From positions 124,001 through 188,000 of the forward strand of contig NZ_MVQB01000013.1 of the NCBI RefSeq assembly GCF_002067035.1: a DNA stretch of 64,000 nt. Reading direction: 5' to 3'. This document shows, piece by piece, positions 8,396 through 35,075 of this stretch; within the stretch, counting starts at the first letter, position 1, and every line of letters starts with the position of its first letter. The notes under the pieces were generated by a model. It saw nothing but the letters and a program-made list of their open reading frames with translations. It did not search any database and was not told where the DNA came from. The position numbers and the translations under genes are program-made. The DNA is from Methanoregula sp. PtaB.Bin085. Lineage in GTDB: Archaea; Halobacteriota; Methanomicrobia; Methanomicrobiales; Methanospirillaceae.

Positions 8396-9301
8396 ATGAG
8401 ACTATCGGACTTTCTTAAAAAACAGGGAACGGAGAAGAACCTTGCGGAATTGATCCTCTTTCTGGGAAGACAGTCTCTTGTTGTGAAGAAAGGATTCCTC
8501 ACGATGCCCGGCAAGGGGCCGGAAGGGGAAAGAACCCGGAACGTGTTCGGTGAGGAGCAAATGCCGCTCGATAAATATGCTGACGGTGTTTTTATTGACG
8601 CCCTCCGACAGGCGCGGCTGGCCCGGTATATCGCAACCGAGGAGCAGGAGCAGATCATTGAGATTCCCGGCGCGAAGAATGACTTTGGTATCGTCATGGA
8701 TCCGCTGGATGGTTCATCTCTGATCGATGTGAACCTCTGCATCGGTACTATCATCGGTATATGCCCGGGAAATGTCCTTGACAAGGGATCCCGTTTCCTC
8801 GCAGCGCTCTATATTCTCTATGGTCCTCTCACCACTCTGACATACACCACCGGAAAGGGCGTCCACGAGTTCATGGTGGACGAGAGCGGCGAATTCGTTT
8901 TGCGGCACCAGGATCTGCGCATTCCCGACGGAAAGATCTACGCCCCGGGCGCTCTCCGCAAAGACTGGATCCCGGCTCATGCCCGATGGATCGAAGATCT
9001 CGAGAAGTCTGGTTACAAGCTCCGCTTCAGCGGTAGTTTTGTCGCTGATGTCCACCAGATCCTGCACAAAGGCGGTGTCTTCACGTACCCGGGGATTAAA
9101 GGCAAGGATGCGGGAAAACTCCGCCTGCTGTACGAAGCAAATCCCATGGGCAGGATCATCGCGGAGGCCGGTGGGGCAGTCAGCAACGGGAAGGAGGATC
9201 TCCTCAACATCCAGCCGGCATCGATCAGCCAGGTCACACCGGTCTACATCGGCGGGAAGAAGGAGATCGCCCTGATTGAAAAATTTATGCGTGAAGGGTG
9301 A
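8396..9301 (+). CDS. fbp: Class I fructose-1,6-bisphosphatase
   Basis: The protein (301 aa) carries the FBPase metal site [13 protein letters not shown] near residue 101 and the substrate-binding stretch [12 protein letters not shown] near residue 239. It hydrolyses fructose 1,6-bisphosphate to fructose 6-phosphate in gluconeogenesis. The start has CGGGGGA five bases upstream. It is the first of three consecutive genes that act on fructose 1,6-bisphosphate. The third is the usual archaeal bifunctional enzyme, so this class I enzyme is apparently redundant or differently regulated. Class I FBPase is uncommon in archaea and may have been acquired from bacteria. Confidence 0.93.
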
Positions 9302-9330
9302 GTACACTGTGGCAGAGGAATGATGACGGA

Positions 9331-10482
9331 ATGACAGCGAAGACCTATGGTCCAATCTCCGGCTCAGCTATCCTGAGAGGGATCACCGGCCACAAAGCAA
9401 TCGTCATGGCGGCCAATGTCCGTATCGCGACTGTTGCGCAGGGTATATTTCAGGCAGCAAAGGATACGGACTCTGTTGTGTTTATGGAACTTGCCCGGTC
9501 CGAGAGCGACCTGAAAGGCGGGTATACCGGCATGACTCCGGCGATATTTGCAGAAAAGATGAAGGAATCTGCTGCGAAGGTGATGTTCGGGACATGGGCG
9601 CTCCATGCGGACCATATTACGATCAAGAAAGGCGATGCAGCAGAGATTGATGGAACGAAACAACTTATCGATGCGCAGGTGGATGCCGGTTACACCTCAT
9701 TTGCGATCGACGCCTCTCACCTCTTCAACTTCGAGGGAAAGAACGTCCGCGAGGAGCTTTCTGAGAACATCCGGGTCACAACAGAGCTTGCCCGCCACAT
9801 CAGGTCAAAGATGAAAGACCGTGAGTTCGGTCTGGAGGTTGAAGTCGGTGAAATCGGCCGCAAAGACACCGGCGGGCTTGTGCTGACAAAACCCGCAGAA
9901 GCGGTCGAATTCATCAGAGCGCTGAACGAGAACGGCGTATTCCCTGACGTCCTTGCTATCGCGAACGGCAGCACCCATGGCCATACTTATGATGCAAACG
10001 GGAACGTGGTTGCACAGCTTTCAATCGATATTCCCCAGACGAAAGCGATTGCACAGGCCCTCCGCGACAACCGTCTCAGTGTCGGAATTGCCCAGCACGG
10101 GATCACCGGCACCCCCCGCGAGCTGATCAACCTCCATTTCCCCAAGGGAGACATCATCAAGGGTAATGTCGGCACTTTCTGGCAGGATGTTGTCTTCGAT
10201 GTCCTGAAAGTCTACGAGCCGTCCCTGTACAAAAGCATCTATGACTGGACACTGGAAAAGTACCGGCCTCTGAACCCCGGCAAGAAGGACAACCAGGTTT
10301 TCGATGGCAACTGCAAGATGGCGATCAAGGAGTTTTACAAGGAACTGTATTCCGTTGGCGAGGAGACGAACCAGGCCATCAGGGCCCGTGCATATGCCGA
10401 GAGTCTCGTCTTCTTCCGTGCCTTTTCCGCATATGGCACTGCGTCTCTTTTAAAAACCGGCGCAAAGAAAAAATCACCGTAA
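9331..10482 (+). CDS. Class II fructose-bisphosphate aldolase family protein
   Basis: The sequence is a TIM-barrel class II ketose-bisphosphate aldolase of about 383 aa. The catalytic/zinc motif HADH lies near residue 92, and further zinc and substrate loops appear as EVEVGEIG and ANGSTHGHTYD, then QHGITGTP. Such enzymes cleave or form fructose 1,6-bisphosphate or tagatose 1,6-bisphosphate through a metal enolate. A GTG at 9298 overlapping the fbp stop would add 11 residues. I prefer ATG 9331 because homology appears to begin near TYGPISG. Its place between two FBP enzymes points to a fructose-bisphosphate substrate, but specificity is not proven. Confidence 0.85.
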   Translation: MTAKTYGPISGSAILRGITGHKAIVMAANVRIATVAQGIFQAAKDTDSVVFMELARSESDLKGGYTGMTPAIFAEKMKESAAKVMFGTWALHADHITIKKGDAAEIDGTKQLIDAQVDAGYTSFAIDASHLFNFEGKNVREELSENIRVTTELARHIRSKMKDREFGLEVEVGEIGRKDTGGLVLTKPAEAVEFIRALNENGVFPDVLAIANGSTHGHTYDANGNVVAQLSIDIPQTKAIAQALRDNRLSVGIAQHGITGTPRELINLHFPKGDIIKGNVGTFWQDVVFDVLKVYEPSLYKSIYDWTLEKYRPLNPGKKDNQVFDGNCKMAIKEFYKELYSVGEETNQAIRARAYAESLVFFRAFSAYGTASLLKTGAKKKSP

Positions 10483-10484
10483 TC

Positions 10485-10491
10485 TTTTTTT
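10485..10491 (+). terminator. T7 run after the aldolase gene
   Basis: Seven consecutive T residues begin three bases after the aldolase stop. Oligo-T tracts are the usual termination signal in archaea. They would separate this gene from the following FBP aldolase/phosphatase. Confidence 0.45.
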
Positions 10492-10522
10492 ATCCCCGGC
10501 GTATCTCTAACTGTGAGACTGT

Positions 10523-11623
10523 ATGCCCAAGACCACCATTTCTGTTATCAAGGCGGATGTGGGCAGTTTTCCCGGACACTGCCGCACCCACCCGAAGCTC
10601 CTTGAGAAGGCGTCCAGGCTCCTCAAGGACGAGGAGGGAAAGCTCCTGATCGATTCGCTTGTTACGCACTGCGGTGATGACCTCGAATTGATCATGACCC
10701 ATACCCACGGCGTTGACAACGAGAAGGTCCACAAGCTTGCCTGGAATGTCTTCATGGAATGTACAAAGATAGCAAAAGATCTCAAGCTGTATGGCGCCGG
10801 CCAGGACATGCTCTCGACTGCATTCTCGGGAAATGTTCGGGGGATGGGCCCTGGTGTGGCAGAGATGGAGTTTGAGGAACGGGCATCCGACCCGGTGCTG
10901 GTCTTTATGGCGGACAAGACCGAGCCGGGGGCATGGAACTTTTTCCTGTACAAGATCTTCGCCGATCCGTTCAACACGGCCGGCCTCGTGATCGATCCTG
11001 CAATGCACAAGGGATTCACGTTCGAGGTGCACGATCTTTTCAAGAAGCGGAAGATCCTCTTCAGGTGCCCGGATGAGATCTACGACATGCTCGCTTATAT
11101 CGGCGCACCCTCCCGTTACGTGATCAAACACGTTTTCCGGAACGATGGTGAGATAGCCGCAGCGACCAGTACCCAGCGGTTAAGTTTAATCGCAGGTAAG
11201 TATGTGGGCAAGGACGACCCGGTCATGATCGTCCGGTCGCAGAGCGGCCTTCCGGCAGTAGGCGAAGTGATCGATCCGTTCTGCATTCCGGTTCTCGTTG
11301 CAGGCTGGATGCGGGGATCCCACCACGGACCGCTGATGCCGGTGGGTCTCTGCGACGCTAACTGCACGCGGTTCGACGGTCCGCCCCGGGTTATCTGCTT
11401 CGGGTTCCAGATCTGCAACGGGAAACTGGTTGGTCCTGTCGATATGTTCGACGACCCGGCGTTCGATCGCGTCAGGAACCGGTGCAATGAGCTTGCCGAT
11501 ACAATCCGGGCACAGGGGCCGTTCGAGCCCCACCGCCTCTCGCTCGAGGAGATGGAATATACTACCCTCCCCGCTGTCGAAAAGGCACTTGCGGGCCGCT
11601 GGGAGGATCTGCCGAAGGAATAG
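10523..11623 (+). CDS. Bifunctional fructose-1,6-bisphosphate aldolase/phosphatase (FBPA/P, type V)
   Basis: The 366-aa protein begins with the family's N-terminal metal and lysine region (TTISVIKADVGSFPGH). It also has GAGQDMLSTAFSGNVRGMGPG and the C-terminal segment with FDGPPRV. This enzyme condenses DHAP and glyceraldehyde 3-phosphate and then dephosphorylates the product. That makes archaeal gluconeogenesis one-way to fructose 6-phosphate. It is the standard gluconeogenic enzyme of methanogens. The adjacent class I FBPase and class II aldolase duplicate its two half-reactions. A T-rich stretch (CTTTTTATAC) follows the stop. Confidence 0.95.
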   Translation: MPKTTISVIKADVGSFPGHCRTHPKLLEKASRLLKDEEGKLLIDSLVTHCGDDLELIMTHTHGVDNEKVHKLAWNVFMECTKIAKDLKLYGAGQDMLSTAFSGNVRGMGPGVAEMEFEERASDPVLVFMADKTEPGAWNFFLYKIFADPFNTAGLVIDPAMHKGFTFEVHDLFKKRKILFRCPDEIYDMLAYIGAPSRYVIKHVFRNDGEIAAATSTQRLSLIAGKYVGKDDPVMIVRSQSGLPAVGEVIDPFCIPVLVAGWMRGSHHGPLMPVGLCDANCTRFDGPPRVICFGFQICNGKLVGPVDMFDDPAFDRVRNRCNELADTIRAQGPFEPHRLSLEEMEYTTLPAVEKALAGRWEDLPKE

Positions 11624-12118: not shown

Positions 12119-12751
12119 GTGGCAAAAACTGTCGTCAAAAAAGCCTCAAAGAACGCGGGCGGGGATGGCAAGAAGGCTGCAGGAAACAAACCTGCAAAGA
12201 CTGCAACAAAGAGTCCCGTAAAAAAAACAAAACGAAACGAGGAAAAAACACCTGAAAAGAAAACCGGCCGGAAATCAGGTGTCACCGAAGAAAAAACCCT
12301 TGAGAAAATCCCGGTAAAAAAAGCAGTTCCAAAAGAGAAGAAAGAGAAGAAGCCCCCGGCAGAACAACCAGTAAAGACCGAAGCACCTGAAGAGGATATG
12401 GACAGTGAAGCGGATCCGGTCGACGAGGGTCTGAGACTGATCCAGTCGAAACCCGAAGGGATCCTCCAGAGCGAACTATGGAAGGAACTCGGTGTCGACA
12501 GCCGCAAGTGCTCGCGGATCGTCAAGAGGCTCGAAGAGAGCGGGCTCATTGAGCGGGTCGATTTCAAGCGGGAAGGAATCAAAACATACCTCCTGCGGGC
12601 AAAACAACAACCGGTAAATCCCGCGGACCTTCTTGCTGGTGACGAGCTCATTCCCTGTATCGGGTGCGAGCTCGAGTGTGTTGTCGAGGAATGTCATCCC
12701 CTCATGGACTGGATGTATCAGCTCGCCATTGTCCAGCATTCCGACGAATAA
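12119..12751 (+). CDS. Winged-helix DNA-binding protein with a long lysine-rich N-terminal tail
   Basis: The first roughly 95 residues are Lys/Pro/Ala/Glu-rich low complexity with histone H1-like composition. A winged-helix domain (about 103-165) follows, with helix-turn-helix text ILQSELWKELGVDSRKCSRIVKRLEESGLIERV split across its helices. The C-terminus has a cysteine cluster, CIGCELECVVEEC. That cluster could hold zinc or a cluster cofactor. The GTG start has AGGTGG six bases upstream and lies 17 bp after the Sm gene, so both are probably co-transcribed. Target and function are unknown. The fold resembles MarR/Lrp-type regulators, and a nucleoid-associated role is possible because of the basic tail. 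Confidence 0.75.
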   Translation: MAKTVVKKASKNAGGDGKKAAGNKPAKTATKSPVKKTKRNEEKTPEKKTGRKSGVTEEKTLEKIPVKKAVPKEKKEKKPPAEQPVKTEAPEEDMDSEADPVDEGLRLIQSKPEGILQSELWKELGVDSRKCSRIVKRLEESGLIERVDFKREGIKTYLLRAKQQPVNPADLLAGDELIPCIGCELECVVEECHPLMDWMYQLAIVQHSDE

Positions 12752-12886
12752 CTTCATTCCCGTTTTTCCATTTCGGGTTTTGCGGACTGTTCTTTCTTTG
12801 CAATTTCCATCTGGAACAACTATTTATCGGTCCACCATCCACCTTTATCCAGTGAATCTGGCACGCTTTCAGCCCGGAGCTGCGTG

Positions 12887-14566
12887 ATGTTCTCTGTTTT
12901 GGTTGTTGACGACTCGAGCGATCTCTTTGCCAGGATCCGTTCATACCTGGAGAAGAGCGGGGAGATCCGTGTCGAATCCGTGCATTCCTTCAGGCAGGCA
13001 ACCGAGAGACTGAAAAGCCGGAATTATGATCTGGTCTTTTCCTACGATCAGGTACCCGATGTGAACGGCATCGAGTTCGTCTCCGAAATGAATGCACCGG
13101 AATTTATCCGGTATCTCCGGTCCGCCGGTAACAGTATCCCGGTAATCTTCCTGACCAGGAAACCTGGTGACCGGATCGTGCTTGAAGACGTGTCCAGTGC
13201 AGCAGAGATGGCGCTCTCTCCATCCGGCGATCTGCGTCCGCAGCTCGCCGATATTGTCACCCTGATCAAACAATCCGTTCTGCGGAAAAAGGCAGAAAGG
13301 GATACCAAGCTCCAGAACGACCAGCTTGCGGCTATTCTGGCAGCAAGTCCCCTTGGGATTATCCAGGTGCGGAACAGAACCATCCTGTGGGTGAACAACC
13401 GCATCGCCGCTTTCCTGGGCTGTAACGAGGCCGGCCTGACGGGAAAGGATTTCCCGGCCCTGTTTCCTACACCCGAAGAGTATGCCCGGTTCTGCGCCGC
13501 AATCCAGCACGTGCAGGATTCCTCCGGATTCGGCAGGGCAGAATGCAGTATCCAGAAGAAAGACGGGACACTTCTGCCCTGCCTGGTTCAGGCTCACCTT
13601 TTCGATCCCCGGGACGTTGCCAAGGGCGGAATCTTCATCGTTACCGATATCACGGAGAAAAAGGCGATGGCTGAAGCCTTAAGAAAGAGCGAGGCGAAGT
13701 ACCGCGATCTGCTGGGAAACACGCAGAGCATTATAATCAGGATGGACCTGCAGGGGACAATCACCTTTATCAATACCTATGCGCTTGCATTTTTCGATTA
13801 TGCATTTGAGGATATACTTGGAAAGAATGTTGTCGGGACAATCGTATCGCCAAAATCCCGGTCCGGTCATGATCTGTCTATGATGGCCGATGACCTGGGA
13901 TTCAATGCCGATGGATACGCCGTCAATGTCAGCGAGAATATCCGCAGGAACGGAGACCGCGTCTGGATTGCCTGGATCAACAAGGCCATCCGCGATGAGA
14001 AGGGGCACGTCGTCGAGGTCCTGTGCATCGGGAATGATATCACCGACCGGAAGCGTGACGGAGTTGTCCGTATCAGCACCGATACCTGGAAAGACGTTGT
14101 TGTCGCAGAAACGGACATTTCCGACAGTGTCTTTGACGCCGTATTCCATATCTGCACCGAGATATCTATCGAAGGGAGGGAAGGGAAGGCAGTCGGGACG
14201 ACGTTTCTTGTCGGGGACATGCAGCACGTACTGGAGAAGTCGCGCCAGATCATCCTGAACCCGTTTGAAGGCCACCCGCCAGAGTCGCGTATCATCACCA
14301 ACCCCGGGCTCAAGGAAAACATCAAGGCGCTTGCGCAGCTGGATGGCGCCTTTGTCATATCCGGTGATGGTTTTGTCGAATCCGTAGGACGCTATATCAC
14401 AGTCGATTCGAGCAGTGTCAGTCTCCCTCCCGGGATGGGCACACGGCATAACTCGGTTGCGGCCATCACCAGTGTAACCCGGTGCGTGGGGATCGTGGTT
14501 TCCCAGAGCGGAGGCGGGATCACGGTGTTCCGTGACGGAAGGATTGTGAAGAAGATCACGCTTTGA
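12887..14566 (+). CDS. Pseudo-receiver-PAS-PAS-diadenylate cyclase (c-di-AMP synthase) fusion
   Basis: The 559-aa protein has four modules. Residues 1-125 resemble a response-regulator receiver (VLVVDDSSD), but the phosphoacceptor position holds Tyr53 with Asp54 next to it, and I see no conserved lysine. Two PAS domains follow (about 140-255 and 272-385), ending in FIVTDITEKK and IGNDITDRK. The last roughly 165 residues match archaeal DacZ-type DAC domains: GREGKAVGTTFLVGD, the substrate motif DGA at 486-488, GTRH at 518-521 and IVVSQSGG. DAC domains condense two ATP into cyclic di-AMP, so the fusion suggests signal-controlled c-di-AMP production. GGAG lies 7 bp before the ATG, and a TATA-like CTATTTATC sits near 12820. 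The catalytic domain looks intact. Confidence 0.85.
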   Translation: MFSVLVVDDSSDLFARIRSYLEKSGEIRVESVHSFRQATERLKSRNYDLVFSYDQVPDVNGIEFVSEMNAPEFIRYLRSAGNSIPVIFLTRKPGDRIVLEDVSSAAEMALSPSGDLRPQLADIVTLIKQSVLRKKAERDTKLQNDQLAAILAASPLGIIQVRNRTILWVNNRIAAFLGCNEAGLTGKDFPALFPTPEEYARFCAAIQHVQDSSGFGRAECSIQKKDGTLLPCLVQAHLFDPRDVAKGGIFIVTDITEKKAMAEALRKSEAKYRDLLGNTQSIIIRMDLQGTITFINTYALAFFDYAFEDILGKNVVGTIVSPKSRSGHDLSMMADDLGFNADGYAVNVSENIRRNGDRVWIAWINKAIRDEKGHVVEVLCIGNDITDRKRDGVVRISTDTWKDVVVAETDISDSVFDAVFHICTEISIEGREGKAVGTTFLVGDMQHVLEKSRQIILNPFEGHPPESRIITNPGLKENIKALAQLDGAFVISGDGFVESVGRYITVDSSSVSLPPGMGTRHNSVAAITSVTRCVGIVVSQSGGGITVFRDGRIVKKITL

Positions 14567-33425: not shown

Positions 33426-35075
33426 ATGAGCAGCGGACTACCCGGATGCCCCACCGTGCATCCTGTTTACATCTTCGGGCACAGGAATCCTGACACGGAC
33501 AGTATCGCCAGCGTCATCGGGTATGCGGATTTCAGGAACCGTTCCGAGCCGGGGCGGTACATACCAGCCCGGTGCGGCGACCTGAATCCCGAGTCACGGT
33601 ACATGCTGGAACGGTTCGGGATCGAGAGCCCTGTCTTTATCCCGTCTCTCGAGCCCCGGCTCTCGGATATTCCCTACAAGCCGGTCTTCTCGCTTGCAGC
33701 CGATGTCCCGACAGTCGATGTGGCGTCCCTGATGGCCACGGAAGGGATCCGGAATGTTGTCATCACCGACCCTGACGGGAAGCCGGTAGGGATGGTCGGG
33801 GAGCATGCCCTTGCCGCAGCATACCTCCGGAAGGTCCATCTCGCAGAACTTGCGGTGACCCCCGTCAGCATCGGAACGCTTGCCCGGATCCTGAATGCCG
33901 GCATTGCGGTATCTGCCGGCGCCGTTCTCGAGGGTCGTGTCTATATTGCCATCGATGCCCTGCATGTCACCCTTGCAAAGATGACGGCAAAGGATATCGT
34001 GATCGTCGGTGACAACGAACCTGCCCAGCTTGCGCTCATCGGTGCCGGGACAGCCTGCCTCATCATTGCGGAAGGCGCTCCGGCTGGTGAGCGTGTCATC
34101 GACGCTGCACGGAAGAAAGGAGTTGCTGTCCTGACAACCCCGCTGGACGCATTCGGTGTCGGGAAGATGATCAGCCTCTCGCTCCCGGCACGCGAGGTAA
34201 TGGAACCGGATGTCCCCATCCTTTCCCTGGCTGATACAATCATCCATGCCCGGGAGGTTGTTGCCGGTTCGAAGTTCCGGGCTGCATGCGTTGTCGGAGC
34301 GGACGGTACGCTGTCCGGTATCCTGACCCGCACGACCCTTCTTATGGATGTCAGGCGCCAGGTCATCCTGCTTGACCATAACGAGGCATCGCAGGCTGTT
34401 GACGGGATCGGCGAGGCAGAGATCGTGGAGATCATCGACCACCACCGGCTCAGCCCGATAACAACCCTGAGACCGGTGAAATTCTTCAACGACCCGGTTG
34501 GCGCGACATCGACGATCATCGCGATGAAATTCATGGAGTCCGGCCTTGTGCCGTCTCCGGGAATTGCCGGCGTGCTGCTCTGCGGGATCCTTTCCGACAC
34601 ACTTGCCCTGCGCATGTCAACGACGACCCACCACGACCGGATGGCGGTGAAGTACCTCGCGCCGCTGGCTGGAGTGGAACCGGACGATCTCGGGACTGCC
34701 CTTCTTGAACGGGGTATGGACCTTGCGGGCGTACCGCTGTCGCAGATCATTGCCCGCGACACAAAGGCATTTACCCTCTTTGGCAGAAAGGTGATTATCT
34801 CGCAGGTGATGGTTCCTTCATTCTTCTGGAACCGCGAACGATCGGATGCCATTCGTGGGGAACTGTCGGTCCTCCGGTCAGGAACCGGGACCGACCTTGC
34901 TGTCGCCCTTTTCACGAACGTCATGGAGAATGCGAGTGATATCTATGCTGCCGGAGACAGTTCCCTCCTTGGGAAAATATTCTGTACCGGTATGCCCGCC
35001 CGGTTCGATGGGGTCATGTCGCGGAAGAAGGATTTTCTTCCCTGGCTTGGTGACCGGCTCCGCGGGGTTTCCTGA
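33426..35075 (+). CDS. ppaC: Family II inorganic pyrophosphatase with CBS-DRTGG-CBS insert
   Basis: The 549-aa protein has the DHH-type catalytic core: FGHRNPDTDSIAS at about 17-29, ILLDHNEA, and EIIDHHRL near 339. A DHHA2 domain follows at the C-terminus (GILSDTLALRMSTTT, ending SRKKDFLPWL). Between them lie two CBS domains and a DRTGG-like domain (about 75-310). CBS-PPases hydrolyse pyrophosphate with Mn/Co, and adenine nucleotides or diadenosine polyphosphates modulate them through CBS. The start at ATG 33426 is compatible with the conserved FGHRNPD region. Confidence 0.93.
   Translation: MSSGLPGCPTVHPVYIFGHRNPDTDSIASVIGYADFRNRSEPGRYIPARCGDLNPESRYMLERFGIESPVFIPSLEPRLSDIPYKPVFSLAADVPTVDVASLMATEGIRNVVITDPDGKPVGMVGEHALAAAYLRKVHLAELAVTPVSIGTLARILNAGIAVSAGAVLEGRVYIAIDALHVTLAKMTAKDIVIVGDNEPAQLALIGAGTACLIIAEGAPAGERVIDAARKKGVAVLTTPLDAFGVGKMISLSLPAREVMEPDVPILSLADTIIHAREVVAGSKFRAACVVGADGTLSGILTRTTLLMDVRRQVILLDHNEASQAVDGIGEAEIVEIIDHHRLSPITTLRPVKFFNDPVGATSTIIAMKFMESGLVPSPGIAGVLLCGILSDTLALRMSTTTHHDRMAVKYLAPLAGVEPDDLGTALLERGMDLAGVPLSQIIARDTKAFTLFGRKVIISQVMVPSFFWNRERSDAIRGELSVLRSGTGTDLAVALFTNVMENASDIYAAGDSSLLGKIFCTGMPARFDGVMSRKKDFLPWLGDRLRGVS

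Follow-up and report, generated by a model that had tools for sequence, protein, structure and literature searches.

The window analysed here, a 64,000-nucleotide stretch of the genome of Methanoregula sp. PtaB.Bin085, contains an open reading frame, dacX, for a single polypeptide in which a receiver-like domain and two PAS domains precede a C-terminal diadenylate cyclase (DAC) domain. A Shine-Dalgarno-like ggag (12876-12879) lies ahead of it, and an in-frame GTG precedes its start by one codon. The features of the locus are as follows.

12119..12751, plus strand: gene for a winged-helix protein (B-block_TFIIIC/HTH_24/MarR), upstream of dacX
12887..14566, plus strand: dacX, receiver-PAS-PAS-DAC, 559 amino acids plus stop
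12887..13261, plus strand: pseudo-receiver domain, residues 1-125 (Pfam Response_reg at 4-95)
13043..13045, plus strand: codon (tac) of Tyr53, at the phosphoacceptor position
13322..13657, plus strand: PAS domain 1, residues 146-257 (PAS_8/PAS_9)
13682..14056, plus strand: PAS domain 2, residues 266-390 (PAS/sensory_box)
14057..14116, plus strand: linker between PAS2 and DAC, residues 391-410, of near-constant length
14117..14563, plus strand: DAC domain, residues 411-559 (PF02457 at 427-552)
14342..14350, plus strand: DGA motif, residues 486-488
14438..14452, plus strand: GTRHN motif, residues 518-522, at the GxRHRxA position
14498..14509, plus strand: VSQS motif, residues 538-541, at the (V/I)SEE position

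The original prediction, made from the sequence alone, had placed a DAC domain with DGA (486-488) and GTRH (518-521) motifs at the C-terminus, fused to two PAS domains and an N-terminal receiver-like domain. The motifs were found at these positions, and Pfam returned every one of the domains: Response_reg (PF00072; residues 4-95) with 43.4 bits against a cut-off of 30.2, PAS_9 (residues 161-257) with 72 bits and PAS (residues 271-385) with 60.6 bits, both above their curated cut-offs, and DAC (PF02457; residues 427-552) with 59.7 bits against a cut-off of 27. As the four matches lie well above the curated cut-offs, they are not chance similarities. The full-length architecture recurs throughout the genus Methanoregula. 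One refinement concerns the residue following GTRH, which is Asn (GTRHN) where the textbook motif has Arg.

The similarity of the C-terminal part to DacZ, also predicted, proved to be real but partial. The DacZ model NF041371 matches residues 366-556 of dacX, at 103 bits against an equivalog cut-off of 430. The homology with DacZ/CdaZ (H. volcanii DacZ, M. jannaschii CdaZ) lies in the DAC domain, beginning near DacZ residue 111; one DacZ of the order is 48% identical to dacX over DacZ residues 111-253. The N-terminal third of DacZ has no match in dacX; a PK_C-like domain, reported by structure modelling (PMC6741144), occupies the N-terminus of DacZ, whereas dacX has receiver-PAS-PAS. The two differ further in that dacX does not lie after sucD, that its DAC domain belongs to another clade and that Glu540 is replaced with Gln. 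By these sequence comparisons, dacX is a relative of DacZ and not a DacZ. The bacterial DisA and CdaA share the DAC superfamily with dacX, as seen in profile matches to solved structures, but DisA adds a DNA-binding part and CdaA a membrane anchor, and their motif reads GTRHR as against GTRHN.

A sensor-fused archaeal cyclase is not in itself new, contrary to what the prediction had implied. A 2013 classification (Corrigan and Gruendling, cited in PMC6741144) already recognized archaeal DAC classes DacV to DacZ, with attached domains, and the representatives named for DacX are Methanoregula boonei A7I8S2 and a protein of a Methanoregulaceae archaeon (PMC6741144). A7I8S2 comes from the same genus and should have the same receiver-PAS-PAS-DAC architecture, which every complete Methanoregula genome searched encodes as its single DAC or alongside other sensor-fused ones only; we found no difference from it, the class assignment being that given in PMC6741144. 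Since a dacX orthologue is present in every good Methanoregula genome, the window protein is, on that account of the classes, DacX, and the M. boonei protein must be its orthologue. In the papers that we consulted, Methanoregula and c-di-AMP occurred together in PMC6741144 only, and we found neither biochemical data for any receiver-PAS-PAS-DAC protein nor a description of the extent of the takeover by sensor-fused cyclases reported below, parts of which may already be in print.

dacX is the sole PF02457 match in the genome of the window (63 contigs, 98.3% complete). The search for a separate DacZ, a point that the prediction had left to be checked, thus came out negative in this genome, which strengthens the case that dacX makes the c-di-AMP of the cell. 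We then surveyed 232 genomes of the order. DAC was present in all 135 good genomes, including the 59 of the window's family. Families f3-f6 have mostly one short open frame, representing stand-alone DacZ. We searched 108 genomes from the window's family with a full-length DacZ. End-to-end matches came from only six, of genera g12 and g15, and four of these six are among the family's 59 good genomes. Almost all the remaining matches began around DacZ residue 109-117 and represent the DAC part alone. Among the 23 good Methanoregula genomes, the main DAC gene encodes receiver-PAS-PAS-DAC in 22, the open frame in the remaining one (G180) beginning inside PAS2, and all cyclases are sensor-fused in 23/23. 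Most species have one cyclase, with a second fused DAC, often accompanied by a membrane helix, in several genomes. The dacX orthologues of the genus are mostly 62-67% identical, and synteny was conserved where checked.

The window's genome also contains five TrkA_C domains and six DHH matches. These are the kinds of families that include c-di-AMP targets and phosphodiesterases, and their presence speaks for c-di-AMP synthesis in this cell, though weakly, as both families are broad. At 33426-35075 of the window, a 549-residue open reading frame with a DHH-type match resembles, on reading its sequence, a CBS/DRTGG-regulated family II inorganic pyrophosphatase.

The winged-helix neighbour of dacX is conserved in Methanoregula and a sister genus. 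Further upstream (8396-11623), a class II-type aldolase gene lies between the genes of two unrelated fructose-1,6-bisphosphatases (PF00316 and PF01950), all in one orientation, and the order of bisphosphatase, aldolase, bisphosphatase, winged-helix protein and dacX is kept in Methanoregula and the sister genus. We considered an operon link between dacX and the fructose-bisphosphate genes but claim no functional connection, as this order is absent in other genera having the same protein.

The position that dacZ once held can be recognized. In relatives within Methanomicrobiales, the genes run sucC-sucD-dacZ-metK-hisG, and dacZ frequently overlaps the end of sucD. The two genera of the family with a retained dacZ have it after sucD as well. 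We compared these sucC-sucD loci (L149-L156 versus L052, L055, L058, L061 and L065). Where all DACs of a genome are sensor-fused, sucC-sucD is kept and dacZ is cleanly gone from its place after sucD, as seen in five Methanoregula genomes (that of the window and four complete ones) and in three other genera. Because sucC-sucD is still present without dacZ, the comparison gives direct evidence of gene loss and not of a failed search.

In a tree of 104 DAC domains, the sensor-fused DACs of the order formed one clade (support 100/97), with the stand-alone DacZ proteins of the order outside it. The only short entries in this clade (L004 and L066) both carry PAS2 and are truncated fusions. The clade also includes proteins of Methanoregulaceae, Methanoregula among them, in which a signal-peptide-like segment, a TPR or PKD region and one further hydrophobic helix, a membrane helix, precede the DAC domain where dacX has receiver-PAS-PAS (L047, L013, L084, L076, L072, L159, L160, L161 and L162). 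These TPR- or PKD-membrane-DAC proteins, probably the DacV/DacW classes, would have an external sensor and, behind it, an intracellular cyclase. Since varied modules precede DAC within one clade, the input module was exchanged several times. A search of phage records gave PAS matches only. Among structures, PDB 37jy, 'Panoptoo PanS synthase', gave a weak DAC profile match (E 0.048), suggesting that DAC-like synthases occur outside c-di-AMP housekeeping.

We place the following history at somewhat better than an even chance: most Methanoregulaceae deleted the housekeeping DacZ at sucCD, and a single new clade of sensor-fused cyclases took over the whole of c-di-AMP synthesis, in Methanoregula a phosphorylation-blind pseudo-receiver-PAS-PAS enzyme with Gln for the active-site Glu of DacZ, so that a constitutive housekeeping messenger became a sensor-gated one.

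The missing DacZ would also fit a loss of the pathway, in which case the DAC domain would bind ATP or c-di-AMP without catalysis, dacX would be a nucleotide-sensing protein and Methanoregula would have ceased to synthesize c-di-AMP. The active site bears on this alternative. In Listeria CdaA, ATP is held by Leu of GALI, Asp of DGA, Thr-Arg-His of GxRHRxA, a Ser and a metal-binding Glu, and by main-chain contacts, among them one with the Glu preceding the metal-binding residue (PMC7288161). Of the side chains with such roles (PMC7288161), dacX has D486, T519, R520, H521 and S539. We compared them across 119 archaeal DACs, 77 fused and 42 stand-alone. The retention of core active-site residues in homologues, on which the predicted activity depended, was borne out: Asp486, Arg520 and His521 are invariant (119/119), the Asp-Gly of DGA being present in 77/77 fused and 42/42 stand-alone proteins, and Ser539 is found in 118/119. 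Thr519, whose counterpart in CdaA binds phosphate (PMC7288161), is present in 76 of the 77 fused DACs, whereas stand-alone DacZ proteins mostly have Gly or Ala there; relative to DacZ, it is restored.

Two positions deviate, and it is these, GTRHN for GTRHR and VSQS for VSES, that speak for a loss of catalysis. The third residue of RHR is N522 in dacX. This position is variable in fused and stand-alone DACs alike, stand-alone DacZ having Arg, Leu, Met or Val there. Met occurs in 12 stand-alone DACs, mostly of the haloarchaeal type (a label inferred from the groups to which the sequences belong), and in all haloarchaeal-type sequences examined; the haloarchaeal DacZ of H. volcanii is an experimentally active enzyme (PMC6741144). 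At the second site, Q540-S541 replaces the metal-binding Glu of (V/I)SEE. Gln is found at position 540 in 58/77 fused DACs and Glu in 41/42 stand-alone ones, and the DisA proteins with solved structures carry Arg or His there. Both positions varying in archaeal DacZ or DisA, the replacements appear to leave membership in PF02457 standing, and Asn for Arg in RHR and Gln for Glu in VSE both match variation among DAC families that are regarded as active. Gln540 is nevertheless a real change, which could entail altered metal use or lower activity, and it is the main reservation about catalysis. Replacement of RHR with AAA abolishes the activity of mycobacterial DisA (PMC3328451) and CdaS (PMC4568413). 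As the deviating positions vary in archaeal DacZ and DisA, we think it unlikely that GTRHN and VSQS mark a dead enzyme. With the invariant residues, the most conserved domain of the protein being DAC (see below) and the retention of DAC in every good genome of the order, we regard a non-catalytic dacX as unlikely. AlphaFold models obtained with a seven-sequence input (full protein: pLDDT 52.1, pTM 0.32; DAC part: pLDDT 42.7, pTM 0.45) were too poor for active-site geometry or dimer contacts.

We examined the receiver domain in 43 distinct members of the family. Tyr53 was confirmed at the phosphoacceptor position, as predicted, and the absence of Asp there is family-wide: position 53 is Tyr in 39 receivers, Cys in 3 and Phe in 1. 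Other receiver features are kept, namely Asp9 (42/43), Pro57 (39/43) and Gly61 (42/43). The conserved receiver lysine is absent from dacX, in a part where the alignment of the relatives is loose. The dacX domain is thus similar to PF00072 while lacking the phosphoacceptor Asp of the beta-3 strand, and position 53 having one of three residues but never Asp in 43/43 receivers, the sequences therefore characterize it as an ancient and conserved pseudo-receiver. Phosphorylation by a histidine kinase could in principle still control the cyclase through Asp54 or the acid pair, for dacX keeps both Asp8 and Asp9 and its Asp54 adjoins position 53. However, Asp54 is present in only 3/43 relatives and Asp8 in 20/43, and the beta-3 position is never Asp; we consider this mode of control highly improbable. 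The original prediction that the protein responds to a PAS ligand or redox state rather than to phosphorylation is therefore upheld insofar as the receiver is not phosphorylatable in the usual way; its positive half, the PAS or redox input, is a proposal. No ligand could be assigned to the PAS domains of dacX, and no cofactor-binding signature was identified in them.

This last result, together with a receiver that is degenerate family-wide, would also suit a cyclase that is active but constitutive, its receiver and PAS domains serving only dimerization or localization. We compared the domains of dacX with those of six congeners. Mean identity was 86% for DAC, 81% for the linker, 80% for PAS2, 58% for the receiver and 51% for PAS1, making DAC the most and PAS1 the least conserved domain. 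The fast divergence of the receiver and PAS1 accords with a constitutive enzyme. In contrast, PAS2 and the linker nearly match the conservation of DAC, the pattern to be expected from selection on output and coupling. The spacing from the DIT motif of PAS2 to the EGREG motif of DAC is likewise near-constant, at 44-47 residues in 61 proteins and 45 in 42/61 (the spacing of dacX itself, 45, was counted by hand). The conservation and the spacing fit a role of PAS2 in passing a signal to the cyclase, and at least three different input modules occur in the one DAC clade, as expected for regulated outputs. A purely constitutive enzyme is, in our judgement, distinctly unlikely.

As read from the sequences, dacX is most likely an active, PAS-controlled and phosphorylation-independent c-di-AMP synthase. 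With reasonable confidence, we propose it as the only c-di-AMP synthase of the cell, a DacX-class diadenylate cyclase under sensor control, gated by PAS through a dimer, with the receiver as a structural or protein-binding domain. DAC domains need face-to-face pairing for activity (PMC8573169, PMC10167629), and by analogy with this need, signalling may proceed by re-orientation of two DAC domains. The receiver-PAS-PAS part would keep two subunits together. A change in the ligand or cofactor state of the PAS domains would be relayed by PAS2 and the linker of near-constant length, and would alter the mutual orientation of the two C-terminal DAC domains and with it the rate at which 2 ATP are converted to c-di-AMP. 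The receiver, without the capacity to carry a phosphate on Asp, would contribute structure or protein binding. Catalysis, PAS control and the dimer mechanism are inferred, as is a part for dacX in K+/osmotic homeostasis.

Many bacteria cannot live without c-di-AMP, and neither can Haloferax volcanii; we know of no account of how the synthesis of this messenger is controlled in archaea. Methanoregula offers a clean case, most species having one cyclase with the sensor on the same chain, and the input signal could be found from a single purified protein. The clade, with its cytosolic PAS versus extracytoplasmic TPR or PKD inputs, forms a natural set for studying archaeal c-di-AMP sensing. Most worth pursuing are the disappearance of DacZ and the prospect of tracing, with one protein, what c-di-AMP responds to in archaea.
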